DNA of 64,000 nucleotides. It comes from Aquabacterium olei. Lineage in GTDB: Bacteria > Pseudomonadota > Gammaproteobacteria > Burkholderiales > Burkholderiaceae_C. Both the position numbers and the translations under genes were made by a program. Numbering within the stretch: the stretch's first letter is position 1; every line of letters starts with the position of its first letter. The notes under the pieces were generated by a model. That model had not been told where the DNA came from. It searched no databases and saw only the letters and a program-made list of their open reading frames with translations. This document shows positions 27,200 to 61,207 of this stretch, piece by piece. The stretch lies in assembly GCF_003100395.1 (NCBI RefSeq), contig NZ_CP029210.1, positions 3,596,001 through 3,660,000 of the forward strand, written 5' to 3'.

Positions 27200-27334
27200 T
27201 GCATAACAAAGTCTTGAAGACGCCTCCCAGTGTCGGGCATGACTATTTGTCACCCCAGGGGGCTGCGAAGTTTTAAAAAAACGCTGCCGTCCGCCGTCCG
27301 TGGCGGCTTCTGCCGCAAAACATAGTCTGAAAAG
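27200..27334. repeat. Left transposon end with TnsB-binding-type repeats
   Basis: Outer repeat ATAACAAAGTCTTGAAGA at 27203-27220, preceded by TGC from 27200. Inner repeat AAAACATAGTCTGAAAAG at 27317-27334, identical at most positions to the right-end repeats read in reverse. Between them is a short AT-rich tract (TTTTAAAAAAAC near 27272) that may hide a degenerate copy. Several spaced binding sites per end are usual for Tn7-like transposases. Confidence 0.7.
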
Positions 27335-27349
27335 CCCCTGTCAGCACTC

Positions 27350-28273
27350 ATGATTCCCACCTTTCCGAGGGGCGCGACCATCGCGTCGTTGCAGATCGCC
27401 TTTGCGCAGGCTGGACATTCGGTGTCCAGTCAACGTACAGCGTCGGGAGAGAAGTCCAGGGCTACATGGCACTGGCGCATGCCGCGCATCCTGACCCAAG
27501 AGGTCTTCGGGAACACGCTCACGGAGGAAGAACTACTCCTGCATCACACACTGGCTCCGGTGAGACTCAGCCTCTTGGCCCCGGCATACCAAGCTCTGGC
27601 GCGGCAAAATCCTTGCTGTTATCTCAGCTTACGAGAAGACTTCATTCAGAGGTCTATGTTGCGGAAGCTGTGCCCGCAATGTGTCCAAGATGACATCACG
27701 AACTTTGGCTGCGGACACTGGCGGCGTGAACATCAGATCGAGGGTGTCGCCATCTGCACGAAGCACCACACACTCCTGCACGACCGGTGCGCCGAGCCAG
27801 ATTGCGGAAAGTCATTCTTCTCCCCCCCGCCTTTCTTGCCAGGGCAACCTTGCCCTTACTGCCACGGAACGGCAACATCGAGCGGTAAAGCCGCCCCTAT
27901 CAGCGAAGGCTATGCCGCTTACTGCAAGCTTTATGTTGATGCCTTGCACACCCCCATTCCAGAGATCAGCATAGGCAATCGAAGAAAGCTGTGGGCACTG
28001 CCTCACGCGCTTTATGGCGGGGACATCGCCGCCTTCAACATGGACATAGGCTACTGGCTCGGCCACCACTGGGCGGATGCCTTCTTGGCATACGATCTCG
28101 CGGGAAAATTCCTGTATGACCCGATTGCGGCGATGAGTCAGCATCACCTTGAATCGGGGCTGATTCTCCTCACGGCGTTCAAGAGATTCCTGCTTGGGCA
28201 TCACAAAGAAGGCGTGGCTGAACGCTGGGACTGCGAACATGCAGGAGCCCCGGATTCCCAGGGGCGCCTGTAG
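27350..28273 (+). CDS. TniQ/TnsD-family target-selection protein (short)
   Basis: 307 residues starting 16 bp inside the last left-end repeat. Two zinc-ribbon-like pairs are visible: CPQC at 108-111 with CTKHH (C136, H139), and CAEPDC (C147, C152) with CPYC (C168, C171). The spacing of the first, with the intervening GHWRREHQIEG, is typical of TniQ/TnsD. The stretch EEELLLHHTLAPVRLSLLAP resembles the N-terminal part of TnsD-like proteins, but the protein is shorter than Tn7 TnsD (about 500 residues) and lacks a recognisable C-terminal DNA-binding half. It may choose the attachment site, while the TniQ at 45894 serves the core or another pathway. Being at the element edge, it could also be a truncated relic. 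Confidence 0.68.
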   Translation: MIPTFPRGATIASLQIAFAQAGHSVSSQRTASGEKSRATWHWRMPRILTQEVFGNTLTEEELLLHHTLAPVRLSLLAPAYQALARQNPCCYLSLREDFIQRSMLRKLCPQCVQDDITNFGCGHWRREHQIEGVAICTKHHTLLHDRCAEPDCGKSFFSPPPFLPGQPCPYCHGTATSSGKAAPISEGYAAYCKLYVDALHTPIPEISIGNRRKLWALPHALYGGDIAAFNMDIGYWLGHHWADAFLAYDLAGKFLYDPIAAMSQHHLESGLILLTAFKRFLLGHHKEGVAERWDCEHAGAPDSQGRL

Positions 28274-28275
28274 CT

Positions 28276-28992
28276 TCAGTAGCCCCAGTCCTCGTGCCTC
28301 ACCGGAAGCCTGTTCAGCTGTTTCCTCAACTGCTGCCAGTCCGGCATGAATCGATCCATTAGCGCAACGAATCGATCGTTATGCGTCGGCTCAATCAAGT
28401 GCATCAGTTCGTGAACCACGATGTACTCAAGGCACTCCACCGGCTTCTTGGCCAAGTCCGTGTTCAACCGAATGTAGCCCGCGTCTGGCGTGCAACTACC
28501 CCACTTGGTTTTCATGCGCTGCACAAACACGCGCTGCGCCTTCACTTGCAACAAGGGCTCCCACTTGGCAAGTAGTACGGGCACCGCGTCCCTGACCTGC
28601 TGCCGATACCACGCATCAAGCACTTCTTCGCAGCGAGCCTGACCTGCACCAGGTCGAATCTGAAGCGTGAGCTTGCGAGGCGAGACACTCACAGCAGGCG
28701 CTGCATCAGCATGACTGATCTCCAGCAGATATCGCTTGCCCCACAGGTAATGACTTTCCTTGTTCAGGAACTCGCGGGGTGTCTCCCGCTCCTGCGCCTG
28801 CAGTTTGCGTTGTTGCGCGCGAATCCATGGCAGCTTCGACACGACAAACAGCCGAATGGTATCCAGCGACATTCCTTGGGGCGCGGCCACTCGCACCTTA
28901 CCCGCGGGAGGAAGCACGCTCAAGTGAACATGCTTGATCGCCTTGCGTGTCACCTCCGCGCGCAACTCGCCCAGGTCGAGCACGTCATGCAT
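28276..28992 (-). CDS. YgjP-like zinc metallopeptidase domain protein
   Basis: 238 residues. The zinc-peptidase motif is HELMHLIEPTHNDRF (HExxH, third ligand His), preceded by KWGSCTPDAGYIRLN, the arrangement of the YgjP/DUF45 (WLM-like) family. These genes are frequent at the end of type I restriction operons; their role there is unknown. The ATG overlaps the hsdR stop (TGATG), so it is translation-coupled as the last gene of the operon. It ends 2 bp from the convergent tniQ-like gene. Confidence 0.85.
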   Translation of the reverse strand: MHDVLDLGELRAEVTRKAIKHVHLSVLPPAGKVRVAAPQGMSLDTIRLFVVSKLPWIRAQQRKLQAQERETPREFLNKESHYLWGKRYLLEISHADAAPAVSVSPRKLTLQIRPGAGQARCEEVLDAWYRQQVRDAVPVLLAKWEPLLQVKAQRVFVQRMKTKWGSCTPDAGYIRLNTDLAKKPVECLEYIVVHELMHLIEPTHNDRFVALMDRFMPDWQQLRKQLNRLPVRHEDWGY

Positions 28993-31900
28993 CAGTACTC
29001 CTTCTGCGCGAACACGATGGGAAAAAGCCGGTTCACTTCCTTGATGTCCTTGAGCACATCAAACATCGCCTGCTTGACCATCTGCTCTCTCGCCACGACA
29101 CCGCGCCACCCGTCAGGGCGCTTGGCCTTGATGGCCGCATCCAGCAGCATCGCCGTGTTCAACGCCGTGTTGGCATCTCCGTACTGCACCGCGGGCTGCT
29201 GAACCTCGCCCGAGACGACATGGTCCTTCAGGTTGTTGTACAAGGCTAGCTGTCCCGCCGTCTTCACTTGCTGAGGCGTGTCGTCGGCCTTGCCTGCGCT
29301 CACCTTCTTGGCCACCTCGGCGATACGCGCCAGGTAGTCCTCGTACTCGACGGCCCTTTCCTTGCGCAGGCGGATGATCTCGTCCAGCAGGGCCGACATC
29401 TTGGCGAAGTAGGCCGGGTCGGTCAGCTGTTCCTTCAGGATCTTGCTGCGAATGTTGTTCTCAATGGTCTCGGCGATGGATTCCTGGTTGCCCTTCATGT
29501 CGCTCAGGCGCTCGGCAATCGCGTCTGCAATGCCGGTCTTCACGATCAGGTCGAGCAAGCCAATGCCATCGAAGGGCGAAATCTTTCGAGGCGCCTGGGC
29601 CTCGATATAGGTGTCGATGAGGTGGCGCATGTCCGCCTCATAGGGCTTCAGGTCCAGCGTTTCGCCCGATGCCTTGCGGATGATCTCTCGCAGGTTCAGG
29701 TAGTGCTTCTGCAAGGCCTTCAGGTTTTCGATCTGCTCTGGCGTGTAGCCTGCGGCCTCCAGTTCATCGGCAATGCCCGCAAAGGCCCGCACCAGGGCCA
29801 CCACGGCCTTGTACAGCGCCACACGGTGAGGTTCACGGGCCTTCAGATCATCAGCAATCTCGGTGTTGCCGCAGAAGTAGTGGATGTGCTCCAGGTCACC
29901 CTTGGGGGGGGCTACTGGCTCACACAGCAGGGCCAGCGCTTCGACCGCGTCATCCAGACGGGTGCGGCCAGCTTCCAGCCGGTCTTTCACCATGATTTCC
30001 GGGTCAGAGCCGCCGGCGCTGTGGTCCAGCTCGGCGGTGTACACGGCAATGGCCTTTTCGACCTTCTTGAACAAGTCCTTGTAGTCAACGATGTAGCCGA
30101 AGTCCTTGTCTTCACCGTCCAGGCGGTTGGTGCGGCAAATGGCCTGGAACAGACCATGGTCCTGCATCGACTTGTCGATGTACAGGTAGGTGCACGGCGG
30201 TGCATCGAAGCCCGTCAGCAGCTTGTCCACCACGATCAACAGCTTCATCTGCGCGGGCGTCTTGATGAAGCGTTCCTTCACGTGCTGCTCGTAGGCTTCG
30301 GTCTTGTTCATGCCCGGGCTGGACGTCACGTCTTTCAGCAGCTCGGTGTACGTGTTGTAAATGAACTGCTTGTCACTCTCGGTGTTGGCGCCAGTCTCTT
30401 CCTTGCTGATGTCAGCGGCCTGCGGGTTGTACGAGGTGACGATGGCGCACCGACCTTTGAACACCGTCTTGCCGAACAGCACGAAGTACTTGCAGGCCTC
30501 ATAGATGCTGGAGGCCACGAGGATGGCGTTGCCCCGCTCGCTCGAAAGCCGAGGCTTGACGGCGAAATCGAACACGATGTCGGCCACCACGCGGTCCATG
30601 CGCGCGCGCGAGCTGAGCACGTTCTGCATCGTGCCCCATTGCTTCTTCAGCTCGTCCTTCTGCCAGTCGTTCAAGCCCTTGGTCTTGGCCTCGAACCACT
30701 GGTCAATCTGCTCAGTGTTACCCAGCTTCTGATCTATGTCCCGGGCCTCGTAAACCAGATCCAGCACCACGCCATCTGCCACAGCCTCGGCGAACTTGTA
30801 GGTGTGGATGTAGCCACCAAACACCTCCAGGCTGGTCTGCGCGTCTTGTTTCAGCAGCGGCGTGCCCGTGAAGCCGATGAATACGGCATTGGGCATCATG
30901 GCCTTCATCAGCCTATGCAGCTTGCCGCCCTGGGTGCGGTGGCATTCGTCCACGAACACGTAGATCTCGCCTTGGGTGGGGCTCGGCTGGGCAGCCAGGT
31001 CTCGAAGGAAGGCTTCGAAATCATCCACATCGCGGCGGCCGAACTTGTGCACCAGTGAGCACAGCAGGCGCGGGTTGGGCTGCGCCAGTTGCGCCATCAG
31101 GTCGTGGCCACTCTGGCTTCGGTGGATGGTTTCGCCCGCGTCTTTGAACACGCGCTCGATCTGGCGATCCAGCTCGTCGCGGTCAGTGATGATGGCTACG
31201 CGGGCGGCGGGCTTGTTCTCCAGAATCCAGCGGGCCAGTAGCACCATCAGGATGCTTTTTCCCGCACCCTGGGTGTGCCAGATGATGCCGCCGCGTTTCT
31301 GGTCAACATGCTTCTGCGCAGCTTTGATGCCGAAGTACTGGTGCACGCGGGGCAGCTTCTTCACGCCGCCGTCAAACAGCACGAAGTCGTGGATCAGCTC
31401 CAGCAGGCGGTGCTTGCTGCACAACTTGGTCAGGTACTTGTCGAGCTTGTAGCCGGTGTTATCGGACTCGTCTTCCTTCCAGGTGAGGAAGTACTTTTCC
31501 TGCGTCTCGATGGTGCCGTAGCGAAGGCCTTCCGAATCATTGCCCGCAAGCACCAGTTGCACCGTGCTGAAGAACCAGTCGTTGAACTCCGGCTGCTGGT
31601 TCGACAGGCACTGGCGGATGCCTTCACCCAAACCGACACGGCTGTTCTTCAGCTCCAGCACGCCCACGGCAATGCCGTTGACGTACAGCACGATGTCCGG
31701 TCGGCGCTCGTGGCCACCTTTGAGGGTGACCTCTTCGGCGATAGCGAAGTCGTTCTTGGTGGGCTCAGCCCAGTTCATCAGGTGCACGGTTTCGGTGGCC
31801 TGGCCCGCCTCGACACGCACCGATACGCCGTAGCGCAGCAATTCATAAACCGCCTGGTTGGCAGCATACAGGGTGCGCCCGTGCAGCGAGGCTTCAGACC

Positions 31901-32102
31901 TGAGCTTGTGCAGCGCCGCGCTGATGTGCGCGGGGCTGTAGCCGCTGCGGGCCAAGAAGGCGCTCAGCAACCCCTCCTCAATGCAGTGGTTGCCTGCACG
32001 TTCGGACCAATCACCCAGGTGTTGGTACTTCAGCGTGTCCGTGAACAGACGGATCACCCGGTCTTGGGTGTCGCGCTCTGGCTTGTTGATGCTGTCACTC
32101 AC
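28992..32102 (-). CDS. hsdR: Type I restriction enzyme, R subunit
   Basis: 1036 residues. The N-terminal nuclease domain has D136 and E150-L-K152 (PD-ExK type). Two RecA-like motor domains follow, with Walker A TQGAGKS at 277-283 and DECH at 385-388, then further helicase segments (GFTGTPL, later LLTGFDAPPC). The R subunit translocates DNA and cuts it far from the recognition site when the S subunit meets unmethylated DNA. It lies after hsdM, hsdS and two accessory genes on the same strand. The reading frame is intact, so restriction should be functional. Confidence 0.95.
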   Translation of the reverse strand: MSDSINKPERDTQDRVIRLFTDTLKYQHLGDWSERAGNHCIEEGLLSAFLARSGYSPAHISAALHKLRSEASLHGRTLYAANQAVYELLRYGVSVRVEAGQATETVHLMNWAEPTKNDFAIAEEVTLKGGHERRPDIVLYVNGIAVGVLELKNSRVGLGEGIRQCLSNQQPEFNDWFFSTVQLVLAGNDSEGLRYGTIETQEKYFLTWKEDESDNTGYKLDKYLTKLCSKHRLLELIHDFVLFDGGVKKLPRVHQYFGIKAAQKHVDQKRGGIIWHTQGAGKSILMVLLARWILENKPAARVAIITDRDELDRQIERVFKDAGETIHRSQSGHDLMAQLAQPNPRLLCSLVHKFGRRDVDDFEAFLRDLAAQPSPTQGEIYVFVDECHRTQGGKLHRLMKAMMPNAVFIGFTGTPLLKQDAQTSLEVFGGYIHTYKFAEAVADGVVLDLVYEARDIDQKLGNTEQIDQWFEAKTKGLNDWQKDELKKQWGTMQNVLSSRARMDRVVADIVFDFAVKPRLSSERGNAILVASSIYEACKYFVLFGKTVFKGRCAIVTSYNPQAADISKEETGANTESDKQFIYNTYTELLKDVTSSPGMNKTEAYEQHVKERFIKTPAQMKLLIVVDKLLTGFDAPPCTYLYIDKSMQDHGLFQAICRTNRLDGEDKDFGYIVDYKDLFKKVEKAIAVYTAELDHSAGGSDPEIMVKDRLEAGRTRLDDAVEALALLCEPVAPPKGDLEHIHYFCGNTEIADDLKAREPHRVALYKAVVALVRAFAGIADELEAAGYTPEQIENLKALQKHYLNLREIIRKASGETLDLKPYEADMRHLIDTYIEAQAPRKISPFDGIGLLDLIVKTGIADAIAERLSDMKGNQESIAETIENNIRSKILKEQLTDPAYFAKMSALLDEIIRLRKERAVEYEDYLARIAEVAKKVSAGKADDTPQQVKTAGQLALYNNLKDHVVSGEVQQPAVQYGDANTALNTAMLLDAAIKAKRPDGWRGVVAREQMVKQAMFDVLKDIKEVNRLFPIVFAQKEY

Positions 32103-32159: not shown

Positions 32160-33157
32160 TCAGATCAACCGAGCCTTTCTGTGACGCCAGACAGCGAGGA
32201 TGGCGCGCCGTTCTTCGGCATTTGCCATGCGGGAGCGCCCCCCCCCCTCACCCAGAAAGTTGTCCAGTAGTCCATCCATGGCGGCTCGAAATTCGTCCAG
32301 CGGCATTTCATCCCAGCTCTTGATGGTCGCCGTGGCGATCACGTGTTCGTCTTTGCCTCGCACCTTGCGTGTGGCCACTACCCGAGCCCATGGCTCCACG
32401 GTTTCTTCTGCGGCTTTCCTGTCGGTCGAGCGGGCAAGGACCAGATCTCCCACCTGGAATCGGCATCGCGCGCCGGGCCAAACGAAAGTATTGATTTCTG
32501 CCCGAACCGACGCGTTCACCCGGGCACGCCCTTGGGCTTCGGCCTTCTCAGATGCACTTTCCTGGGCGGCCGAATAGGTGGCCGTGTAAAGCCTCAACAA
32601 GTGCAGCGGTGCCTCGTCCTGTTCCCGCTCACTGGTTTTGGGCTTATCGGCCGCCGCCTGACCTGGCCGAGGCTCACCTTGCAGAGGGTAGGTAGTGGGC
32701 GGGCGGTAGGCTTCAGCCAGCTCAGCAAGGAAATGTTCGTCAACCTCTTCGAGGCAGTGCGTCTCCACAAACTGCCAGGCGGCTGCAGCCATCGCTTTGT
32801 CTGTGGACCACACGCCCGCTTCCAGCAGGCGGTCGCGACTGGTCTCGGAGGCGTTGCTGGAGCCGATGAGCGCAGCGCCCGAAAAGGCAAATACCTTGGC
32901 GTGCAAGGACTGCAGGGTGAAGATCCGAACGCCTCGCTTGTGCCACGCCAGGAGGTCTTTGCCAGAGACCTGGCCCGCCCTGGCAGATTTCAGATCACAC
33001 CGTGTGAGCACCCAGCTGCCGGGTGCGGGCTTGATCCACCGACTCACCCCAAGCCAATGTACGGCACCGCAATGCGGGCAGGCTTTCCGGCCTTCAGGGC
33101 CTGCTGGATGTTTTGCCAGATGGCCTCATTGGTCAACAACTCGAACTTCGCAGCCAT
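32160..33157 (-). pseudogene. PLD-like nuclease-type gene split by a frameshift
   Basis: Two overlapping frames together make one PLD-superfamily protein. The first (ATG at 33157, 37 codons) gives MAAKFELLTNEAIW to IAVPYIGLG and stops at 33044. The second starts at GTG 33047 and continues RWIKPAPGSWVLT to LHAKVFAF and GSSNAS, the single HKD-type motif, then about 200 more residues. The join AVPYIGxG-xxLxPxxGS is continuous in related proteins, so one base appears to be missing at the GGGG run near 33048. Stop and start overlap as GTGA, so coupled translation of two chains is an alternative. It sits between the NucS-like gene and hsdR. Confidence 0.6.
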
Positions 33158-33190: not shown

Positions 33191-34150
33191 TCAGTGCCCC
33201 GTCTCAACGGGAATGAGCTTGAACTTCACTTCGTAGCGGTAGAAGCTGATCTGCGGCACCGCCAGCAGGGCCCAGCGCAGTTTCTTGTCATCGTCCAGCG
33301 CAATGATGGCGCCCTCGACCGTTTGATGCGGTTCGGCGATCTGCTCCTTCACGAAGCCCATGTAGCGCAGGATCTGTCCCACCACCACGTCCGACGCGCG
33401 GCCGCGCTTGAGTTCGACCACCAGCAGGCGCTGGCCGTCTTTGCTCACAGCCAGGATGTCGATAGGGCCGGCGTCGGTGGCGTATTGCTGGCCCACCAGT
33501 TCGCCGTCTTCCTCATAGATCTTGAAATGCTGCGCCAGCTCGGTCTGCGCCCAGTTCTTCACCAGGAAGTCTTCCAGGTGCTTCTCCATTGCGAAGGCCA
33601 CCGGGTCTTCCACCACGGGGTCGGTGGCCACGATGTTGGGTGCGGCCTGACCCGGCAGGGTGGAGAGGAACTGCTCGATTTCCGGGTGGTGGTCGGTGAT
33701 GTTGCTGACCGTGCCGATGGAGCCTGTGGAGTTGCGCAAGGCCTCGCTCATGGCCGCGCGGGCGATGGTCAGGGGCAGCCAGTTCACGCTGCGGCGATGG
33801 GGCAGCACCTGGCCAGGTGCGTAGGTGTAGCCGTCTTGCACTTCGCCAACGAAGTAGCTTCCCGTGCCATCCGGGCACAGCACGATGTCGCCCACTTCGA
33901 TGCCTTTGGCCACTGTCCACAGCGCACCGCAAGCCAGGCCTGCGGCGATCTTGCTTTTGTCGGGGTGGCCGGTCAGGAACACGGGGATGAAGGCAGCGTT
34001 GAACTGCCGCCATTCATCGGGCAACTTGCCGGTGAGGTCCTCATGGATGTCGAAATCGGCACCGATGAAACCGCCTGCACGGCACTCGGCGGCGTGGGCG
34101 CTCTGACGGCCCAGCATGACGCGGTAGTAGCGCTTGGAGGGCTGGCTCAT
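33191..34150 (-). CDS. NucS-like (DUF91) endonuclease-domain protein in the restriction operon
   Basis: 319 residues. The C-terminal part shows a PD-ExK nuclease core: GPIDILAVSKDG with the Asp, then LLVVELKRGRASD with ExK, and QILRYMG after it, the pattern of NucS/DUF91 proteins. The N-terminal ~140 residues resemble an EVE/PUA-like reader (GDIVLCPDGTGSYFVGEVQD), perhaps for modified DNA. It overlaps hsdS by 4 bp and is followed by the PLD-like gene. An accessory restriction function is likely but inferred. Confidence 0.75.
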   Translation of the reverse strand: MSQPSKRYYRVMLGRQSAHAAECRAGGFIGADFDIHEDLTGKLPDEWRQFNAAFIPVFLTGHPDKSKIAAGLACGALWTVAKGIEVGDIVLCPDGTGSYFVGEVQDGYTYAPGQVLPHRRSVNWLPLTIARAAMSEALRNSTGSIGTVSNITDHHPEIEQFLSTLPGQAAPNIVATDPVVEDPVAFAMEKHLEDFLVKNWAQTELAQHFKIYEEDGELVGQQYATDAGPIDILAVSKDGQRLLVVELKRGRASDVVVGQILRYMGFVKEQIAEPHQTVEGAIIALDDDKKLRWALLAVPQISFYRYEVKFKLIPVETGH

Positions 34151-35385
34151 GCGGAGGGCTCCACGAGGCGGATGCGGCCCGTCAGTAGGGCTTGGGCCAT
34201 GGCTTGTTTGAGGGCGCGGGCTTTGGTGAGGCGCTCCTCGAGAGCTACGATATTCACTTCAAGGTCGGAAAGTACCTCGACGATTGCTGTTTGCTCAGCT
34301 ACGGTAGGCGGGAGTCGAACCTCGAAGGTCATGAACGTCGGCAGCCGCAAGGAATCAACAGTTGCTTTGACCGAGTTCTCCATCGCGTGGGGGCCGAAGA
34401 AGACGCGCATGAAGAAATACACGAAGCGGCCTAGGACACTTTCACTAAAGTCAGTGATGCCATAGACGCGCTGATGCAGGGCAAATCGGCCATGGAAGTA
34501 GTGAAAGATGCTGCCGATTCCACCTTCGCCCGGAATCAGAATTGCCTCACAGTCATGCGTGTAGGTGTCAATCCTCTCAACACTTTGCGATCTGACAAAG
34601 AACGGGAATTCGCCATCCTCGACCTTGTCTTGGTTGTTCATCGATCCTGTTTTGATTCTTGCTATCTCTCCCAGTGGGGCGCAAGTCCAATCGCCAGCGA
34701 AGCCCGGCAATCGCCGATTGCCAGTGAGCAGTTCCTGCATGGCGCCTTGCTTGATCTGGCGCCTCTTGGTCAGCAGTTGCTCCAGCGAGTCGATCAGGGC
34801 ATCGGCGTTGTCTATAGCCTTTGCGATTTCCCGCTGTTCCTGCTCTGTAGGCGGAACGGCAACGGTCAGCTCACCCAGTGAGGTCTTATTGATTGATGCC
34901 AAATTGGTGGTTTGTCGACCAGCCAACATGAAGTACCGACGAGCTTGCGTAGTCGATGTCCAAGCATTCAGGTACTCGGGCACCAGTCCTTTTTTGCACC
35001 TCACGACAAAGACATGGTTTTGGTGAACGCATGGGTTGATCTGCCCGCGCCACAAAGCACCACGCCCAAGTTTGTCTAGATCGCCGCCCTCATTCATGAG
35101 AACGTCACCGGGTAGCACTGCGTAGCGACTCAGATCCGCGCGCTCGATGTCGATCAAACTGACCTCGTCAAGATCCAAGTAGCCGTCTTGAACGTTTGCT
35201 ACACGTAGGTAGGGAACCGACACCGGGTCGCGGAACATCGCGCTGGAGTTCTTGGCAATGCCTGACTGAATTGAGGCTCTGGAGGCTAGCTTGATGACTG
35301 CCCAGTCTCCGGGGATCGACCCGATCTCACTCTCGCGATATGCAGGATTCGTAAGGTACTTCGCGTTTGGCTGCCTCACTTCCAT
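34147..35385 (-). CDS. hsdS: Type I restriction enzyme, specificity subunit
   Basis: 412 residues with two target-recognition domains and the conserved helical spacers between them: IGSIPGDWAVIKL opens TRD1 and LPGFAGDWTCAPLGEIARI opens TRD2, each followed later by a coiled-coil spacer (EIAKAIDNADALIDSLEQLL and EVNIVALEERLTKARALKQA). It determines the bipartite DNA site. The ATG at 35385 overlaps the hsdM end by 10 bp, with the conserved NPAYRESEIGSIP start; the longer in-frame start at 35562 is rejected as it would run far inside hsdM. The recognised sequence cannot be predicted from the protein here. Confidence 0.93.
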   Translation of the reverse strand: MEVRQPNAKYLTNPAYRESEIGSIPGDWAVIKLASRASIQSGIAKNSSAMFRDPVSVPYLRVANVQDGYLDLDEVSLIDIERADLSRYAVLPGDVLMNEGGDLDKLGRGALWRGQINPCVHQNHVFVVRCKKGLVPEYLNAWTSTTQARRYFMLAGRQTTNLASINKTSLGELTVAVPPTEQEQREIAKAIDNADALIDSLEQLLTKRRQIKQGAMQELLTGNRRLPGFAGDWTCAPLGEIARIKTGSMNNQDKVEDGEFPFFVRSQSVERIDTYTHDCEAILIPGEGGIGSIFHYFHGRFALHQRVYGITDFSESVLGRFVYFFMRVFFGPHAMENSVKATVDSLRLPTFMTFEVRLPPTVAEQTAIVEVLSDLEVNIVALEERLTKARALKQAMAQALLTGRIRLVEPSA

Positions 35386-38491: not shown

Positions 38492-38516
38492 GTTCGACTA
38501 CTGCCTACCTGTGACG

Positions 38517-39014: not shown

Positions 39015-39015
39015 C

Positions 39016-48762: not shown

Positions 48763-48770
48763 GCGCCACC

Positions 48771-49211: not shown

Positions 49212-49219
49212 GCATACAG
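49204..49219 (-). promoter_or_regulatory. LexA box of the umuDC operon
   Basis: CTGTACATGCATACAG is an exact CTGT-N8-ACAG match to the LexA operator. It overlaps the predicted umuD start codon and abuts a -10-like TATACT (minus strand, 49223-49218), so LexA bound here would block the promoter. Confidence 0.85.
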
Positions 49220-49353
49220 TATAACGATGGTGAGCGCCCGACATGTGCGGGCAATGCCCAGCCGTCTGGAAACCAGAACGTTTGCACGACGTTGACGGCG
49301 GCCATGCCGCAACGCCCGGTTGCCGACGGCCGGCCGGAGTGAACCCGACTTTC

Positions 49354-52419: not shown

Positions 52420-54234
52420 ATGGACACCCTCCCGCTGCGATTCGCGCTCCACCACTTTCTCGATAGCTTGCTGCGAGAAGGTCTGTGCGTGTATGCCGAG
52501 TTGTGGAGTCGTGAAGCGCTCGTTGCCAGCCGGGGTGATCCAACCAACGCTGCAGAGCCCGAAGTGGTGCAGCAGGTCGACCTTGGCGGCAAACCTTACA
52601 CGGTGCTCGCTCGACGCGATGACAACCCGTTCTTGCCGCCGTTGGATGTTGCAGCCGTTCGACGCTGCGCGGAGGCTTGTCAAGAAGCCACATCGCCTCA
52701 GGGTGCAAAGACACCGCCTTCCGACACACTGGCGAGGACGTTGGACTTCGTCACCGACGCATTTGTGCTCGTCGGACATGGTTGGGAAATCCTCCACTGC
52801 AATCTGGCGTTTGAGCGCCTTAGCGGCTTCCCTGACAGCGCGTTGTTGGGACAGTCCCTCTGGACGCGCTGTGGGGTCTTCAAGCTGCCAGCGATCCGGA
52901 CTCAGTTGCTGAGCGCGCTTGCCAACGGGCAAGCAAGCGAGATCGAATGCTGGAACTCGGATTCTGACCGGTGGCTCTACGTCCGGGTCTTTCCCTGTAC
53001 CGAGGGCCTGAGCGTCTTTGTCCAAGACATCACGGCGCGCAAAAAGGTCGAGGAGACCAAGTTAGACCTCGAGCGGCAATTGAGCCAGGGGCGACGCATG
53101 GAATCCCTCGGCACGCTGGCGGCCGGAATTGCTCATGACTTCAACAATGTCCTCTCCGCGGTGATCGGCCACGCAGGAATGCTCCGGGAAAAACTGGACG
53201 CTCACCACGCGGCCCGCCTGCATGCCGACGAGATATGGGTGGCAGCTTCTCGCGCACGAGACCTCACCGGGCGCATTCTTGCCTACAGTCGCTCATCCCG
53301 GGGGGAAACAGACAAGCAGCCTCTCAAAGCACTCACGCGAGAGAGTGTGAACTTGCTCAAAGCAACATTGCCAACCACAGTGCGGCTCAATGCCCAGCTT
53401 GATGGTCAGGAGGTGTGCGCCCGGATCTTGCCCTCTGAAGTCCAGCAGATCGTCGTCAATCTGTGCACCAACGCGTGGCAAGCGATGCCGAACGGGAAAG
53501 GGCACTTACACGTCAATGTGAGCCATGTTGACATTCGAGAGGAAATGCCCGTTGACACTGGCGTCCTCCAACCCGGCTCCTATGTCATGTTGACGGTGGA
53601 GGACGATGGAGCCGGGATGAGCCCCGACGTCCGGGCACACCTGTTCGAGCCTTTTTTTACGACGAAAGCACGCGGTGAAGGGACCGGCCTAGGTCTTTAC
53701 GTTGTATCAGGAATCACGTCTGCGAGAGAGGGCGGGATACGAGTATCCGCGGCGGAAGGAAAGGGGGCGCGTTTCGATGTTTTCATTCCAGCGTGTGATG
53801 ACGAGCATACCGATCCCACGTTCTCTTCCGTTCCGACTCTTAAGGGCCACTCCGAACGGGTGGCCTACATTGACGATGATCCCGTGGTGTGTGTCATGGT
53901 GGAGCAACTCCTGAACACTCGAGGGTTCGTCACGACCACCTTCGCTGATCCGGAGTCAGCACTTCAAGCGCTGCTGACAGAGCACTTCGATATCGTGGTT
54001 ACCGATCAGAACATGCCCGATGTCTCAGGCGTAGAAGTAGCCAACATCTTGCGGACGCGTGGTGTCGAACTGCCCATCGTGCTGAGTACGGGGCTCATTT
54101 CCGAAGAGCTTCGCAAGACAGCGAAAGACGCCGGGATATGCGAGGTGTTCCCAAAGGAACGCTCTTTCGAAGATCTCCCTACGCTGCTGATTGAATGTCT
54201 TGCGCGATCCCCTCGTGCAGGCGCGGCGTCATAA
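52420..54234 (+). CDS. PAS-containing histidine kinase with C-terminal receiver domain
   Basis: About 604 residues, no membrane helix seen. A PAS domain (about 105-215; FVTDAFVLVGHGWEILHCNL) precedes a histidine phosphotransfer site in GTLAAGIAHDFNNVLSAVIG, a HATPase domain (N-box NLCTNAWQAM, G boxes VEDDGAGM and GEGTGLGLYVV) and a receiver domain with phospho-acceptor Asp in VVTDQNMPDVSG. This HDFNN-type kinase architecture is common in soluble hybrid sensors. It is convergent with the large multi-PAS kinase. No dedicated response regulator gene is adjacent. ATG 52420 is preferred to 52324, which would add 32 residues of low-complexity sequence. Confidence 0.85.
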   Translation: MDTLPLRFALHHFLDSLLREGLCVYAELWSREALVASRGDPTNAAEPEVVQQVDLGGKPYTVLARRDDNPFLPPLDVAAVRRCAEACQEATSPQGAKTPPSDTLARTLDFVTDAFVLVGHGWEILHCNLAFERLSGFPDSALLGQSLWTRCGVFKLPAIRTQLLSALANGQASEIECWNSDSDRWLYVRVFPCTEGLSVFVQDITARKKVEETKLDLERQLSQGRRMESLGTLAAGIAHDFNNVLSAVIGHAGMLREKLDAHHAARLHADEIWVAASRARDLTGRILAYSRSSRGETDKQPLKALTRESVNLLKATLPTTVRLNAQLDGQEVCARILPSEVQQIVVNLCTNAWQAMPNGKGHLHVNVSHVDIREEMPVDTGVLQPGSYVMLTVEDDGAGMSPDVRAHLFEPFFTTKARGEGTGLGLYVVSGITSAREGGIRVSAAEGKGARFDVFIPACDDEHTDPTFSSVPTLKGHSERVAYIDDDPVVCVMVEQLLNTRGFVTTTFADPESALQALLTEHFDIVVTDQNMPDVSGVEVANILRTRGVELPIVLSTGLISEELRKTAKDAGICEVFPKERSFEDLPTLLIECLARSPRAGAAS

Positions 54235-54293: not shown

Positions 54294-57200
54294 TCACTGA
54301 CTGTTGTGGGCGTCAGTGCCCAATGGAATCTGAACCACGAACTTCGCTCCAGTGCCCGGGCCTTGGCTCTCGGCCCATACTCGACCCCCATGCAGCTCGA
54401 CCAGACGTCGCACCATCGCAAGTCCGATGCCGAACCCCAGGGCCGCATGTCGATCCTGAGTCTTTTGCTGGTGAAACAAGTCAAATACCTTATCGAGTTC
54501 GTCGACCTGGATACCCATCCCGTTGTCGGAGATGGTGACCTCCGCATACTCCGCGCTGCTGGTCAATGTGACTTCTATGGCGCCCCCTTCCGGCGTGTAC
54601 TTGACCGCGTTGCCAAGCAGGTTGTCTAGGACTTGAGACAACCGTGTGGGGTCCACATTGGCAACAACGTCTTGCTCCGGAACATTGATCGTCAGACGTT
54701 GCCGTCTTGCCTGGGCTCGGATCAGGGCTGGATCACACGCATAGAGCAGTACCTGGCGGATCGAAGTCGGCGCAGTCTTCAGAGTAAAGCTGTCTCTGGA
54801 TATCCGAGACACCTCGAGCAGGTCGTCGACCAAACATTGCAATTGCTTGCTTTGCCTCGTGATCACGCCTCGAGCAAAAGTCGAGGGCTCACTGAGATGG
54901 GCGTCACGCGACAAGATGTGGTTGGCGTTAGAGATGGCCCCGAGCGGATTGCGGATTTCATGCGCCAGCATGGCGAAGAACTGTTCCTTCCTCGCGTCTG
55001 CCTCTTTCAGGACCTCCAAAGTGCGGCGCTCCGCATCAATGTCGACGCACACCATCACCGCTCCGGCAGGCCGGTCCTGCTGCACAACAGGGGAGGCGAT
55101 CAGACGGAGCCATAGACTGCGTCCGTCGCGGCTTGTGACGTGTTGAACTTCGACCTCGGAGCGAATCGATCCGTCGAGGACTTGAAGTACAGGGTACCGA
55201 GCTTGTGCAAGTCGTGTTCCATCCGCGCAGTAGCTTTCCCACCGTTGTGACTCATCGCGAACTTGAGCGCCGCGCCCCAAAGGTCCGAACAACGAGTCCA
55301 TGAGCGGATTTGAGCGGGTGATGTGCCCAGCCTCGTCGACACTCAGAATGCCCACCGGTGCAGTCCGCAGTAGCGCTTCGACGTATGCGCCCTTGTCCTG
55401 GAGCGTTCGCCACATCGTGCGCGTTTCGGTGGTGTCCCACAGAACGCCGCTGAATCGAGTGGCTTGGCGACCTGAGTCTCGATGCTCAAACCTGACTCTG
55501 CCAATGGCTTCCACATCGCGAAGCGAACCGTCCCGCCATAGGACGCGATAGCTTTCATGAAAGATACCGTCCGCGTGGGAAGCCATCGCTGACTCGATCG
55601 CAAGCCGCACTCGGGGCAGATCTTCTTTGTAGACGCGTACCAGCACCTCATCGAGGTGCACATCCCCCTCCTCCGGCATGTCGAACAGGCGTCGCGCGCT
55701 GCCGCTCCAGACGATGCGGGTACTGGGGACATCCATGTCCCACCACCCGAGCGATGATGACTCCATGGCCAGCCGCATTCGCTCTTCGCTTTCCGCCAAA
55801 GCACTGAGGCTTTTTCGCAGCGCTCCCTCACTCGCCGCCAAACGCTCCGCGGTTTCGACTTCCGCGGTTACATCGGTGACGAGCCCAATAAATCGCATGG
55901 GTCTGCGGGGGGTCTCGTTTTCAGTGAACATCACCCGGCCCTGACTCTCCAGCCACCGCAGGGTGCCATCCGGTTGAAGGACGCGATAGCGCTCAGACCA
56001 TATTCCGTCGGACTGAGAACCATCCAGTTGCGCTCCCACCCTTGCTGCAAGCCGCACGCGGTCGTCTGGATGTAGCCGGGACAAGAAATGGTCGTACGAC
56101 GGCTCCTGTCCTGCGGGCAAATGAAACAACGCACGGGTTCGAGCATCCCACTTGAGTTCTCCAGTCGCAAGGTCCCAGTCATATCGACCAGCGTCCACTG
56201 CGTCCACTGCAAGTCGCAAGCTCTCTTCGCTGTCTCGTAAGCGCTGCTGAGCTTTACGCTCTTCGGTCAGATCAAAGGTGACGCCAGCGATGTGCGAGGC
56301 TCCTCCGTCTACTGTGTCATGTGGGACATGCCGCCCCGCAGCTCTGACCCAACGCCAGTGTCCGCTATCGTCCTGAACCCGATAGGTCTCGTCGTAGTCG
56401 ACCTTATCGTGCGCACATCGAAGGAGACTCTGTTGAACGCGTTCGACATCGTCGCGGTGAATGCCGCAAAAAGCATCAGCCCAGCAGACCCTGTCCGAGT
56501 CACCCCTTATCGCATGTTGCCGGCGCGTACTGACGGGCACCAGAAACACGTTCTCCCCTATCAGGTAAGTCCATGTCTGCAGCTTCCCGGCGCTCAACGC
56601 AGCCGCAAGCCGGGCCTCTCGCTCGCGAACCAAGGCCTGCTGAGCTTTGAGTTCGGTCACTTCGTATGCCACAGCCACTAAGGTCGACGGCTTGCCGTGC
56701 CCATCCTTCTCTGCACTGAGCAGGGAGCGGAAGACACGCTGCTTCTCGTCTGGCCCTGCGTAAGAGAATTCGATCTCGCGGGGGCATCCATCTGCCAGGA
56801 CCGCGTGCATCACGTTGTCCCATTGATCGCATAGGTGCGACGGCATCCCGAGGTCCCGGTTCGATTTCCCGAAAAATGTCGCCGGCGGCATGCCCGTGAT
56901 CGTCTCTATCGCTGGGCTCACATAGAGGTGCTTGAGATCCTTGTCAAAACGGCTTACAACAATGGGCGTCGCATGGTGGAGTTTGGCAAACTCCGGGTTC
57001 CATTGAGAACGAATGCGAGCTTCGTTGGTGACGTTGATCGAGACACCGACAAGCCCGACAACGGAACCTGCACGGTCCCGCCACGGCGTCTTGCAAGAAA
57101 GATAGACGCGGTGCGGATCGTGCAAGATCTCTTCGGTTAAGAGGGCCCGACCTTCATTGACCACTTGCATGTCATGCAGCGTGACATGGTGGGCGTCCCG

Positions 57201-57800
57201 ATCCTCGCGCATGTAGGCCGTGGCAAGGTGACCGAGGGCCTCGATACGGTTCTTGCCCAACACGTCGAGCACGGCGTCGTTGCACCACACGAGCCGACCT
57301 TCCCGATCCTTCAGATACAAAAGGCCGTCTCCACACCGCTCAAGCGCGTTGAGGACCTCTAGCGCTTTGATGAATTCGGTTTCTCGGAGCTTTTGGTCGT
57401 GGATGTCCCGCGCTGTGCCAACCCAGGAAACGAGTTCGCCGCGAATGTCGCACACGGGGGCAGCGCTGACTCTGTGCCACCGTGAGCCGCCCTCGCCGGT
57501 CAAGATGCGTGCTTCACATGTCAGTACCGTTCCTGCCGCCCGAGCTGCGGACCACGCCGCGAGCACCTGGACTTGGTCCAGGGGATCTACGAACGATGTC
57601 CAATCGGTATTGAGTACAGTGTTTGTATCTAAGCCGGAGGCGTTATGTCCCCGTGCGGTGAAAGAGGTCACTCGGCCCTTGGCGTCGGTCTCCCACAGAA
57701 GCGACTGCCCACGAACAAGCAAGTCTTGCAGCGCAACCGCTCGCCGCATCTCCATCTCGGGAAGCGACATCGTATTCAGGACGTCGAGTTGACTTGGCAT
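54294..57800 (-). CDS. Multi-PAS histidine kinase
   Basis: About 1168 residues, predicted soluble. Seven PAS/PAC repeats precede the kinase, opening with segments such as SLLWETDAKGRV, CGDGLLYLKDREGRLVWCN, ATPIVVSRFDKDLKHLYVS, LSAGKLQTWTYL, VDAVDAGRYDWDLATGEL, MESSSLGWWDMD and LRTAPVGILSVDEAGHITRS. The HisKA box is QFFAMLAHEIRNPLGAIS; the ATPase boxes are NLLGNAVKYT, ISDNGMGI and GFGIGLAMVRRL. No receiver domain. The start is uncertain: ATG 57800 or GTG 57875. It is convergent with the PAS-receiver kinase and divergent from a small unknown gene. The many PAS domains suggest combined sensing, perhaps redox or light, but no cofactor site is evident. Confidence 0.86.
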   Translation of the reverse strand: MPSQLDVLNTMSLPEMEMRRAVALQDLLVRGQSLLWETDAKGRVTSFTARGHNASGLDTNTVLNTDWTSFVDPLDQVQVLAAWSAARAAGTVLTCEARILTGEGGSRWHRVSAAPVCDIRGELVSWVGTARDIHDQKLRETEFIKALEVLNALERCGDGLLYLKDREGRLVWCNDAVLDVLGKNRIEALGHLATAYMREDRDAHHVTLHDMQVVNEGRALLTEEILHDPHRVYLSCKTPWRDRAGSVVGLVGVSINVTNEARIRSQWNPEFAKLHHATPIVVSRFDKDLKHLYVSPAIETITGMPPATFFGKSNRDLGMPSHLCDQWDNVMHAVLADGCPREIEFSYAGPDEKQRVFRSLLSAEKDGHGKPSTLVAVAYEVTELKAQQALVREREARLAAALSAGKLQTWTYLIGENVFLVPVSTRRQHAIRGDSDRVCWADAFCGIHRDDVERVQQSLLRCAHDKVDYDETYRVQDDSGHWRWVRAAGRHVPHDTVDGGASHIAGVTFDLTEERKAQQRLRDSEESLRLAVDAVDAGRYDWDLATGELKWDARTRALFHLPAGQEPSYDHFLSRLHPDDRVRLAARVGAQLDGSQSDGIWSERYRVLQPDGTLRWLESQGRVMFTENETPRRPMRFIGLVTDVTAEVETAERLAASEGALRKSLSALAESEERMRLAMESSSLGWWDMDVPSTRIVWSGSARRLFDMPEEGDVHLDEVLVRVYKEDLPRVRLAIESAMASHADGIFHESYRVLWRDGSLRDVEAIGRVRFEHRDSGRQATRFSGVLWDTTETRTMWRTLQDKGAYVEALLRTAPVGILSVDEAGHITRSNPLMDSLFGPLGRGAQVRDESQRWESYCADGTRLAQARYPVLQVLDGSIRSEVEVQHVTSRDGRSLWLRLIASPVVQQDRPAGAVMVCVDIDAERRTLEVLKEADARKEQFFAMLAHEIRNPLGAISNANHILSRDAHLSEPSTFARGVITRQSKQLQCLVDDLLEVSRISRDSFTLKTAPTSIRQVLLYACDPALIRAQARRQRLTINVPEQDVVANVDPTRLSQVLDNLLGNAVKYTPEGGAIEVTLTSSAEYAEVTISDNGMGIQVDELDKVFDLFHQQKTQDRHAALGFGIGLAMVRRLVELHGGRVWAESQGPGTGAKFVVQIPLGTDAHNSQ

Positions 57801-57898
57801 GTGATGCGGATGCGGCAGTGAATCGGGTTTGACCAGGTCCGTCAGAGTAACAACGTTCTCATGATGGCGATACACACAGTTAAAGATTGTTTCACTCG

Positions 57899-58368: not shown

Positions 58369-58875
58369 ATGTTCATAGCGTCCACCAGTGAAGGGATGGC
58401 CGTTTCTTTGGCTTTGCATCGCAAGCTGGAAACATCGCTCGGTGTCACTTTATGGTCTTGGGATGTCGGCAACATGAACCGCTTCTCGATCGACCGCGCA
58501 AAAACGCTCATTTCAACGTCCGACATCGCCGTTTTAGTCTCGTCCCCTGCGGACGTGGCGTGCCTTCGAACACCAAACAGGGAAGCCGGTCTCAGAACAG
58601 AGGAGACTCTGTTTCTGCTCGGGATCATGGTAGGAGCGCTCGGTCCGAACAGGGTTTTCTGGGTCTTGCCTGACGAGGAGGGAGCTCCCGCTGCCGTCGC
58701 TCATCGCCTAGGAATTCACAAGTTCTATTTCGACGGGCATCGCCGCGATATCAATGCGGCGATCTCGGACGCATCTTTTTCATTGCAGGAGGCCGTGAAA
58801 GAGATCGGGCTACGAACTCCGCTTGGTCCACCCGAAGGTGGACTCGACATGGTTCGAGCGTGGTTGGGAAAATAG
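58369..58875 (+). CDS. TIR-like nucleotide-binding domain protein
   Basis: 168 residues forming one domain: FIASTSEGMAVSLALHRKLE at the start, VTLWSWDV, DIAVLVSSPADVACLRT, then a LGIMVGALGPNRVFWVLP segment and LGIHKFYFDG. This follows the predicted nucleotide-binding TIR-like family (CAP12/Pfam10137 type) used in cyclic-nucleotide defence systems. In that family the helix after the Arg usually reads NVIFELG; here it reads ETLFLLG, so the conserved Glu is replaced by Leu. No SAVED, STING or cyclase gene is adjacent. It may therefore be an inactive or adapted relative. A small unknown gene precedes it. Confidence 0.62.
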   Translation: MFIASTSEGMAVSLALHRKLETSLGVTLWSWDVGNMNRFSIDRAKTLISTSDIAVLVSSPADVACLRTPNREAGLRTEETLFLLGIMVGALGPNRVFWVLPDEEGAPAAVAHRLGIHKFYFDGHRRDINAAISDASFSLQEAVKEIGLRTPLGPPEGGLDMVRAWLGK

Positions 58876-59353: not shown

Positions 59354-60484
59354 ATGAAGAGCTGCGACGACAGGTACATCTGGCAAGCCCCGGACTGGCC
59401 CAACTGGCGCTTCGACTTGGAAGTGCTGGTCGGGCCCATGGCCGAGGTACGTCGCTCACTCGACCTGTTGCTTGCGCGGATGACCGCCGCGAGCCCTGTT
59501 CAGCGCGATCAACTGATGCTGACGGCCGTGGCAGAAGAGGTGGTCAAGACCAGTGAGATCGAGAGCGAACAACTTGACGTCGCATTGGTGCGGTCGAGCG
59601 TAGCGCGCCAATTGGGCACTGAGGTGAGCCGCACGGGCAGGATGGACCCGCACGTGGATGGCGTGGTCAAGATGGTGCTCGACGCCTCCATCAGATGCAC
59701 CGATGCTGTTTCGCAGGAGCGGCTAGTTGGCTGGCAAGCCGCGCTGTTTCCCTTGAACCGCTCGTTCCTCGCCAGGATCAAAATCGGAGACTGGCGAGAT
59801 GATGTCGCAGGACCGATGCAAGTAGTGTCTGGACCAGTCGGTCGACAGCGAGTGCATTTCGAGGCCCCGCCAGCAGACCGACTGGCGACCGAGATGCGTC
59901 AACTCCTGGACTGGCTCAACAGCGCATCGAATGAACCGCCGCTCATCAAAGCAGGCATCGCTCACTTATGGTTCGTGACACTGCACCCCTTTGAAGATGG
60001 CAACGGTCGGGTAGGCCGTGCGATCTGCGATCTACTCCTGGCCCGCGCGGACAATAGCCCCCAACGCTTCTATAGCCTGTCGGCGCAGATCCGACGTGAG
60101 CGCAACGCCTATTACGAACTGCTGGAGCGCAGCCAGAAGGGCTCGATGGACGTGACGGAGTGGCTGATCTGGTTCCTCGACATGGTCCATCGAGCAGTGG
60201 ATCAGGCCCATCGAACGCATGATGGGATCCTCACCAAGGCGCATTTCTGGCAGAAGTGCGCTGACATGCCGTTGAATGATCGGCAAGTGAAGGTACTGAA
60301 CCGTTTGGTGGACGGCTTTGATGGCAAGCTCACATGCAGGAAGTGGGCAGCCATCGCCAAGTGCTCGACGGTAACAGCGCTGAGCGATATCAGCGACTTG
60401 GTGACGCGAGGCCTACTCTTGGAATCAGCTACTGACGGTCGAAGTACGAGCTACGTACTGCCTAACAAGCGACAGGCGGACTAG
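59354..60484 (+). CDS. Fic-family protein with N-terminal inhibitory helix
   Basis: 376 residues. The catalytic loop HPFEDGNGRVGR lies at 211-222 and matches HxFx[D/E]GNGRxxR completely, so AMP (or UMP/phosphocholine) transfer to a hydroxyl side chain should be possible. An inhibition-helix-like motif TSEIES is at 66-71 (consensus [S/T]xxxE[G/N], here ending S), making it class II with built-in control by Glu70. A C-terminal winged-helix-like segment (CRKWAAIAKCSTVTALSDIS) is typical of stand-alone bacterial Fic proteins. No separate antitoxin of the FicA type is adjacent. Targets unknown. Confidence 0.92.
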   Translation: MKSCDDRYIWQAPDWPNWRFDLEVLVGPMAEVRRSLDLLLARMTAASPVQRDQLMLTAVAEEVVKTSEIESEQLDVALVRSSVARQLGTEVSRTGRMDPHVDGVVKMVLDASIRCTDAVSQERLVGWQAALFPLNRSFLARIKIGDWRDDVAGPMQVVSGPVGRQRVHFEAPPADRLATEMRQLLDWLNSASNEPPLIKAGIAHLWFVTLHPFEDGNGRVGRAICDLLLARADNSPQRFYSLSAQIRRERNAYYELLERSQKGSMDVTEWLIWFLDMVHRAVDQAHRTHDGILTKAHFWQKCADMPLNDRQVKVLNRLVDGFDGKLTCRKWAAIAKCSTVTALSDISDLVTRGLLLESATDGRSTSYVLPNKRQAD

Positions 60485-60605
60485 CCACTCGACCGTCTCC
60501 ATCCGAGTTCCGGTCTGAAACGGTATTGCTTCAGGCTGATTGCCGGGAGAATCATGTTGACTGATAGCCATCGTCACCGCCTGCTGGCATCCTGTTCTGT
60601 GTACG

Positions 60606-60968
60606 ATGGCGCGCAGAGCATTCGACCAAGCAACGGACCAAGCTGCGGTCACGCTGGCTCACCGTGCACGATTCTGGCCCGGGATAGAGGAGGCTTTCAT
60701 GCATGCAATGAGGCGGAGGCGAAGACTGCGGACAGAGGCTGCGTTTCGGTCACGACACGCGCTACTTCGCACCCAAGTTCGAAGCAGGGACCTGCTGGCA
60801 CTTGCTCAGACGGTCTTCATGAACGAAAAAGCCGCCTCCGTATGGATGAATCGGCCGCACGTGCTGCTCGGTGGCGCCTCCCCTCGTGAGGCCGCCAGAA
60901 AATCGAAAACGGGCGCGACCCGCGTTCAAGAGATATTGGTCGCCATCAAGCACGGCGGTGTCGTGTGA
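60606..60968 (+). CDS. DUF2384 (MbcA/ParS/Xre) antitoxin-like protein, no toxin adjacent
   Basis: 120 residues. The C-terminal ~50 residues follow the toxin-binding domain of Xre-MbcA-ParS antitoxins: TVFMNEKAASVWMNRPHVLL, then GGASPREAARKSKTGATRVQ and EILVAIKHGGV. The N-terminal part is very basic (AMRRRRRLRTEAAFRSRH) and may bind DNA. The usual RES-domain toxin would follow directly, but only ~220 bp separate this gene from the transposon end and contain no open frame for it. It is thus an orphan or a relic, perhaps acting against a toxin elsewhere. Confidence 0.68.
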   Translation: MARRAFDQATDQAAVTLAHRARFWPGIEEAFMHAMRRRRRLRTEAAFRSRHALLRTQVRSRDLLALAQTVFMNEKAASVWMNRPHVLLGGASPREAARKSKTGATRVQEILVAIKHGGVV

Positions 60969-61122
60969 TTTGCCTCAGCGCCCTCAATAAAGGCGCATGA
61001 CCGCGAACGACGGATCGCCGCTACAGCTCGCCCGCCAGTCCCCGTGCCTCACTGCACGCTGTCGCACCTGCCCTGCGGCGGGCTCGACTCCCCACGCGCC
61101 ACAGAGTCCTTCTAGATCAATG

Positions 61123-61207
61123 CTTTTTGAGACTATGTTTTCGGCATGAGACAGCACAGAAAAGTCGTTTTGAAACTATGTTTTGACTTTTAAGACTTTG
61201 TTATCCA
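61123..61207. repeat. Right transposon end with three TnsB-binding-type repeats
   Basis: Outer repeat CTTTTAAGACTTTGTTAT at 61187-61204, ending CCA at 61207. Two inner repeats are CGTTTTGAAACTATGTTTT at 61166-61184 and CTTTTTGAGACTATGTTTT at 61123-61141. Spacings are 21 and 43 bp between starts. Their common core (GAxACTATGTTTT) is the inverse of the left-end inner repeat at 27317. The terminus lies 18 bp before the next host gene. Confidence 0.75.

Follow-up and report, generated by a model that had tools for sequence, protein, structure and literature searches.

A Tn7-like transposon of Aquabacterium olei that lies directly before the start codon of a gloB-like gene

Tn7 of Escherichia coli (TnsABCDE) has TG/CA ends and inserts after the gene glmS. 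The Tn7 attachment site at glmS is known as attTn7 (Faure et al. 2023, PMC10293859). Here we describe a Tn7-like element within a stretch of 64,000 nucleotides of the Aquabacterium olei genome (contig NZ_CP029210.1, positions 3,596,001 to 3,660,000, forward strand), hereafter called the window, whose numbering is used throughout; the genome comprises 4.26 Mb in two contigs. The element occupies positions 27194-61213 (34,020 bp) and stands immediately upstream of a gene resembling gloB. It shares with Tn7 homologous TnsA, TnsB, TnsC and TnsD proteins, arrays of TnsB-type sites at both ends, a 5-bp target duplication and the use of one chromosomal attachment site. Unlike Tn7, which stands after a gene, it lies before a start codon; the termini of its clade mostly begin with RGG (ten of 12) rather than TG; and its core genes are not beside the right end, a small TniQ gene is far from the core, and tnsB is split by an insertion sequence (IS).

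Three further groups of described elements invite comparison. In the dual TniQ-TnsD transposons treated in the main text of PMC10293859, one target selector of more than 400 amino acids (aa) accompanies one clearly smaller TniQ, as here. However, those two genes are described as being in tandem, whereas our small TniQ gene is placed just inside the left end, 11.5 kb ahead of tnsA, and there is no effector of a CRISPR (clustered regularly interspaced short palindromic repeats) system among this element's scanned open reading frames (ORFs). Tn6022, which the same text describes with TniQ-TnsF, is likewise Tn7-like, has a small TniQ and targets a chromosomal gene, but it inserts inside comM and uses TnsF, while our element has a TnsD-type protein and leaves the gloB-like frame uninterrupted. 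Finally, the Tn7-like elements surveyed in the main text of PMC8649781 (Benler et al. 2021) resemble ours in their restriction defence cargo and IS3-family passengers. The main texts of these two papers, without their supplements, do not mention a gloB-like attachment site, and our literature searches found no description of one, though a supplement or a paper beyond the scope of the searches could hold it. What sets the element apart is the site before a start codon, the stacking of ends at it and the question of a promoter; otherwise the element is of a known Tn7-like kind. It adds a well-delimited clade with a pre-start-codon site, and prompts one to ask how expression of the target gene is maintained.

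Ends and core genes of the element

The two termini carry repeats of 24 bases that are equal at 21 positions: AGGGAGTGCATAACAAAGTCTTGA at 27194..27217 on the plus strand and AGGAAGTGGATAACAAAGTCTTAA at 61190..61213 on the minus strand, with 61213 as the element's last base. Directly outside them are two identical copies of TCCCT in direct orientation, at 27189..27193 and 61214..61218, which constitute the target duplication. Each end also contains an array of TnsB-type sites. The left array consists of two sites on the minus strand, the outermost at 27202..27219, detected with a site matrix, and another at 27316..27333, detected both with this matrix and with an inner-site pattern. The right array has three sites on the plus strand with spacings of 43 and 20: an inner one (61125..61142) and a middle one (61168..61185), each found with pattern and matrix, and an outer one (61188..61205) found with the matrix. 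The inner-site pattern matches four times in the window, where shuffled sequences predict 0.04 matches. A preliminary description of this stretch had reported repeats common to both ends as well as inner repeats on both sides, and these observations hold, with one inner site on the left and two on the right.

Reading outwards from the outermost TnsB-type site, both ends present nine bases and then TCCCT. This arrangement gave an end rule (a site ending in ATAAC/GTTAT, nine bases, and a 5-bp repeat), which was fixed on the window and on the element of Aquabacterium lacunae KMB7 and was afterwards tried on four more elements. The rule holds exactly in five of the six elements with two known ends, including the present one, and in three of the four that were tried later. 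The KMB7 element (contig positions 127577-170916, approximately 43.3 kb) has the duplication TCAAG, and the exact fits among the later-tried elements are those of genome G322 (TATAA, 23.6 kb), Rhodoferax BLA1 (G410; CTTTT) and Rhodoferax U2-2l (TTTTT). Within the window's own genome (G000) the exact end pattern occurs at the element's two edges and nowhere else. No left end was found for G092, nor in the fetched stretches of G019, G018 and G020.

The preliminary description had placed the element's ends at a TG and a CA, at 27200 and 61207, as in Tn7. These dinucleotides do stand at the two positions, but no 5-bp direct repeat adjoins them, for which reason we rejected them as ends, and the register given by the TCCCT duplication lies six bases further out. 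The sister elements agree with the outer register: when 12 termini are read in it, ten begin with RGG, one with TGG and one with ACG, so that a terminal TG occurs only once and the TG/CA ends of Tn7 are not a feature of this clade. We do not count TG/CA termini as a requirement for the Tn7-like family. A direct view of the junction comes from two near relatives, G007 (locus L033) and G409 (locus L103), in which the locus is uninterrupted. Both agree with the window up to 27193 and then continue into the gloB side (flank identities of 89-92% for G007, and of 91 and 96% for G409), which places the left junction between 27193 and 27194, six bases outside the end proposed earlier. The right flank differs by small indels, with the match of G007 beginning at 61223 and that of G409 at 61195, the latter because an end of a second type in G409, described below, resembles the element's right end. 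The position of the right edge thus rests on the target duplication. Altogether, ends at 27200 and 61207 are quite improbable. The rule that emerges, RGG and six variable bases before a TnsB-type site, with a 5-bp duplication, departs from TG/CA.

The genes tnsA, tnsB (split), tnsC and tnsD share one direction and lie in the middle of the element. For tnsA (39794..40825, plus strand), which encodes the endonuclease, a profile of homologues matches Tn7 TnsA (1t0f) with an E-value of 9e-12, and residues E105, D178 and K197, which we take to be catalytic, are invariant in six of six aligned sequences. A TnsB profile built from three intact homologues of 753-761 aa (L043, L051 and L035, each aligned minus its last residue) matches Tn7 TnsB (7pik) with an E-value of 8e-24. 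The AAA+ regulator gene tnsC (44419..45897, plus strand) yields 5e-39 against Tn7 TnsC (8glu). Finally, tnsD (45894..47240, plus strand) encodes a TniQ core, recognized by Pfam, and a C-terminal helical part; its profile matches the solved Tn7 TnsD (8glu) with 7e-16, and its AlphaFold model, with a mean predicted local distance difference test (pLDDT) score of 83, has residues 1-318 of Tn7 TnsD as its best match (E-value 5e-7). The model has an extra helical region of roughly 95 residues near the C-terminus, which may be the part that reads DNA. Pfam assigns the AAA/TniB and TniQ families to tnsC and tnsD, and nothing to tnsA and tnsB. The idea that the latter two are therefore not TnsA and TnsB was rejected, since the homologue profiles match the Tn7 proteins in the PDB.

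The reading frame at 41656-44400 might be taken for an intact TnsB of 914 aa, but nearly half of it is antisense to an IS, and we rejected it. Instead, tnsB is in two pieces, a 5′ piece (40818..41586) and a 3′ piece with the catalytic part (42908..44400), both on the plus strand and colinear with the three intact homologues. Between them is an IS3-family element of 1318 bp (41587..42904, minus strand) with 16-bp inverted ends, a 3-bp target repeat GAT on both sides and an opposite-strand transposase with rve and HTH_21 domains, as is typical of IS3. It interrupts the gene after the first 256 of about 753 codons, and all stretches that align to the catalytic region of Tn7 TnsB, containing what are presumably its catalytic positions, are behind the IS. 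At least nine copies of this IS, this one included, are present in the window's genome at 100% (rounded) identity, a lower bound in that 40 of 146 candidates were scored; the IS is thus probably recent and active. With tnsB split, this copy should not move alone. A TnsC profile search of the genome returned one match in total and no second one, so no sister copy that could help was seen. The element is thus probably unable to jump by itself and apparently immobilised, and should stay where it is unless another source provides a matching TnsB in trans. The claim in the preliminary description that a TnsA-TnsB-TnsC-TniQ core lies in the middle of the element is therefore correct as to position, but tnsB is not intact. 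Neither this break nor the fixed attachment site had been noticed there. A. lacunae has the same layout: 12.6 kb separate its core from the left edge, and about 25 kb from the right one. In Rhodoferax BLA1, two successive tnsA-like stretches precede tnsBCD (L058, 5097-7717).

Aquabacterium parvum and A. lacunae are among the relatives that the TnsC profile finds, and clade TnsC (at least 53% identity) is present in five of 37 Aquabacterium genomes. A broader survey gave matches in one of 399 genomes of the order, the window's own, at an E-value of 1e-50, and in five of 349 of the family, again including the window's own, at 1e-40.

The attachment site before gloB

The gene that marks the site (61226..61855, plus strand) encodes a hydrolase of the metallo-β-lactamase fold and belongs to the host; 12 bp separate its ATG from the right edge of the element. 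It is a relative of GloB, scoring 102 bits against TIGR03413, under the cut-off of 200.8, and has a match in 41 of 42 Aquabacterium genomes. Wherever one contig carries both clade tnsD and gloB, the right end is directly before gloB. This applies to seven of seven genomes: the window's own, A. lacunae (G024), Rhodoferax BLA1 (G410), G366, G092, G322 and G217. The distance between transposon edge and ATG is 7-12 bp in 20 listed loci. More distant relatives of TnsC (25-35% identity) occur in G005, G011, G014, G017, G018, G031, G033 and G034; in the seven of these where a best gloB match was found, it is on another contig than the TnsC relative. Three of the contigs in question are 120-403 kb long, and others are short.

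We analysed the 144 bases upstream of gloB in 38 Aquabacterium genomes, having excluded G032 and G036 (partial gene) and G006 (contig edge) from the 41; five stretches from other genera, picked for holding tnsD, belong to a wider set of 43 stretches and are outside this count. Clade end sites were found in 19 of the 38, ends of the second type in seven, and neither in 12, as compared with 6/3000 (clade type) and 0/3000 (second type) in random stretches. The main end-site matrix was built partly from loci that it then scored, and we therefore also used a matrix made from the window's five sites only (threshold 14), which detects sites in 22 of 37 other genomes and in 4/2000 random stretches. 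The gloB loci of other genera, of which we looked at 28 among 39 genomes with a match, have an end-like site by matrix in two cases.

These results make it highly probable that 27194-61213 is a Tn7-like transposon whose clade TnsD leads TnsABC to a site before the gloB start codon, and whose tnsB was later split by an IS. TnsD would lead TnsA, TnsB and TnsC to the region just before the start codon; by analogy with Tn7, and judging from the junctions, TnsA and TnsB would cut the element out, and insertion would create the 5-bp duplication and leave the right end facing gloB, 7-12 bp before its ATG. The IS3-family element would have entered tnsB afterwards. We infer that site choice, through recognition of the 5′ end of gloB, is the work of TnsD rather than of the small TniQ, and that movement was by cut and paste. 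Such a TnsD/gloB pair would offer protein-guided DNA insertion.

Several observations weigh against this reading. The binding of TnsD to gloB, and transposition itself, are predicted from sequence. In G033, G035, G018 and G411, tnsC and gloB are on different contigs, which makes their linkage unreadable, although clade-type ends precede gloB in all four. G406, a third near relative, contains no match to the left flank of the window at 27193. Each of the Rhodoferax elements has its two ends on separate contigs, and the duplication TTTTT of U2-2l is weak evidence. For the element in G108 the fixed rule gives CCGAG/CTCGA instead of an exact duplication, perhaps because the element has decayed or is read one base off; no tns genes were detected there.

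Two other explanations of the island deserve consideration. The repeats before gloB could be native regulatory sites rather than transposon ends, the island having arrived otherwise. Such an origin would fit the occurrence of one or the other repeat type in 26 of 38 Aquabacterium genomes when clade TnsC is present in only five of 37. But the same repeats recur, inverted, at the far edge of six elements, five of which have exact 5-bp duplications, while 12 of the 38 Aquabacterium stretches lack repeats altogether and, in the window's genome, the exact end pattern is confined to the element's two edges. The paired inverted ends and target duplications largely refute native sites, which we consider scarcely credible. 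Alternatively, the tnsABCD core might be a second, nested element, and other proteins, perhaps together with the small TniQ, might move the outer ends. Cargo on both sides of the core, a second TniQ just inside the left end, a BLA1 core that abuts the right end, and a 6.7-kb element in G108 that has a fragment of the small TniQ gene (TniQ2) but no detected tns genes could all be understood in this way. However, the thresholds used reveal no further end-type sites inside the element, looser matches being single and scattered; A. lacunae shares the layout, with its core at the same distances from the edges as given above; and the ends that adjoin the BLA1 core are of the same type. We consider a nested core quite improbable.

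Stacked ends and a promoter-like box at the site

The element's left end adjoins a different end, GTTCGATACTTTGTTATCAG, at 27168..27193 on the plus strand, which is also present before gloB in relatives. Ends of this second type, similar to GTTCGAWACWTTG, precede gloB in seven of 38 Aquabacterium genomes and stand directly before the gene in G007 and G409. Among the loci examined, no complete element bounded by such ends was seen. The end at 27168-27193 is probably a trace of an older, different Tn7-like element. To the left of it, the stretch 25750-27010 is mostly without a match in G007, G406 and G409, where other sequence of about 0.2 to 6 kb stands instead, as expected for the remains of older insertions. 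An ORF of 251 aa in this stretch (26095-26850) has no Pfam or PADLOC match.

Other loci show related patterns. G322 has two nearly identical right ends in tandem (L080, 10340-10570, and L081, 13920-14163), with TATAA behind each; it looks as though a single family had inserted twice at one and the same base. The element's far side in either Rhodoferax genome also borders a sequence that by eye resembles TTGTTYTCAG. The upstream stretches of three loci from other genera (L140, L144 and L145) resemble second-type ends, also by eye only. Different elements thus seem to have used this place in turn. Tn7 exhibits target immunity. Where two ends differ in their TnsB sites, neither would be expected to be subject to the target immunity of the other, and the stacked ends are natural material for studying it.

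An insertion leaves gloB only 7-12 bp of its former upstream DNA, and transcripts should therefore start within the right end or further in. A box, TGCTA[CG][GC]CT, is present inside the innermost detected site in 12 of the 19 Aquabacterium loci with the clade end type, at about 26 bases from that site in ten loci and at 46 in two, which seem to have lost a site. The same box is found 6-36 bp before the ATG in five of the 12 Aquabacterium loci classed as without end sites, three of which have no visible trace of an end. Among these five, L110 has the look of a worn end, and L029 is possibly another. The box is absent from the seven second-type loci, the 28 loci from other genera and the five tnsD-bearing stretches from other genera. 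Its background is 30 occurrences in 2.02 Mb, in a pool that also includes gloB loci and overlapping loci, and since the pattern was first spotted by eye in the same loci, these counts are not an independent test.

It is possible, if rather doubtful, that the elements land between promoter and start codon and bring a promoter in their right end, which would make the host gene dependent on the transposon end; the box, which resembles one that some Aquabacterium genomes have before gloB, is hypothesized to drive the gene. If true, this would explain why shortened right ends that keep the box persist before gloB where no core genes are seen, as well as the stacking of different end types at the site. 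The box could instead be a binding site for a transposition or host factor, an explanation that we regard as about evenly balanced between right and wrong. Conservation drops at the cargo side of the box. The stretch that separates the box from the first TnsB-type site is also conserved, which fits a binding site. So does the lack of a -35-like hexamer at a fixed distance from the box, which counts against a promoter, as does the window's own right end, where the box is absent and a sigma-70 promoter scan is empty. Against a binding site stand the presence of the box before the ATG in loci classed as end-less, among them the three with no visible trace of an end, and its retention in ends that have been reduced to one TnsB-type site (L030, L099 and L104).

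Small TniQ and cargo

A second TniQ protein, of 307 aa, is encoded just inside the left end (27350..28273, plus strand) and is recognized by the Pfam TniQ family. Its AlphaFold model, based on ten sequences (pLDDT 78), has Tn7 TnsD as its best match with an E-value of 9e-4. In the main text of Faure et al. 2023 (PMC10293859), small TniQs are interpreted as adaptors that serve a further target selector. Three PADLOC TniQ models, some of them CAST-named, match the protein; no cas family was found in 26 ORFs of the element with Pfam, and no cas model with PADLOC, other short ORFs being outside the scan and no search for CRISPR arrays having been made. A protein search returned nine relatives besides the protein itself. 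Among 399 family genomes, two others have a match, G092 and G108, and that of G092 is within an element at gloB. G108 carries the 6.7-kb element mentioned above, also at gloB (L134 15132 to L135 5867), with two ends, the TniQ2 fragment just inside the left one, and no detected tnsABCD. This element is possibly a non-autonomous derivative. By eye, one of its ORFs resembles an MFS transporter.

The cargo is ordinary, and its combination is not surprising in itself. The preliminary description had called the element a Tn7-like transposon with a defence and stress cargo and had listed type I restriction with accessory nucleases, TIR, Fic and antitoxin genes, umuDC, catalase and two PAS kinases; the homologous core, the ends, the duplication and every named cargo gene bear this out. 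To the left of the core, all on the minus strand, are genes for a YgjP-like metallopeptidase (28276..28992; Pfam), the restriction subunit HsdR (28992..32102; Pfam and further profile scans), a weak PLD/DrmC-like protein (32160..33047; below curated cut-offs), the candidate defence protein PDC-S02 (33191..34150; PADLOC, 503 bits), which has a NucS-like nuclease end (Pfam NucS_C), HsdS (34147..35562; Pfam and PADLOC) and HsdM (35376..37814; Pfam and further profile scans). The PDC-S02 and PLD-like genes are both between hsdS and hsdR. Restriction-modification is the commonest defence cargo of Tn7-like elements, and insertion sequences, particularly of the IS3 family, which counts among the most frequent passengers, occur in about 30% of transposons, according to the main text of Benler et al. 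2021 (PMC8649781). Next to the core, a gene pair for a 205-aa protein and an Xre-like regulator (37874..39083, minus strand) is also upstream of tnsA in the sister locus L054, at 63 and 70% identity, and may be part of the transposon backbone.

To the right of the core, umuC and umuD (47458..49244, minus strand) adjoin tnsD in A. parvum too, at 86-92% identity. Rhodoferax U2-2l has umuC-like pieces 1.4 kb inside its right end (L127, 231-1519), and umuC therefore recurs as a passenger in another genus. These genes are followed by a catalase of the HPII type (49354..51849, minus strand; 1019 bits against a cut-off of 1102), a PAS histidine kinase with a receiver domain (52324..54234, plus strand; Pfam) and a multi-PAS histidine kinase (54294..57875, minus strand; Pfam). 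The remaining cargo genes are on the plus strand: a TIR-domain protein of the Cap12/Pycsar-like kind (58369..58875; Pfam and PADLOC), a SoFic-like Fic protein (59354..60484; Pfam and PADLOC) and an Xre/MbcA/ParS antitoxin-like protein (60606..60968; Pfam and a further profile scan). At 58239-58875 the TIR reading frame overlaps an ORF of 129 aa on the minus strand, and likely only one of the two is real.

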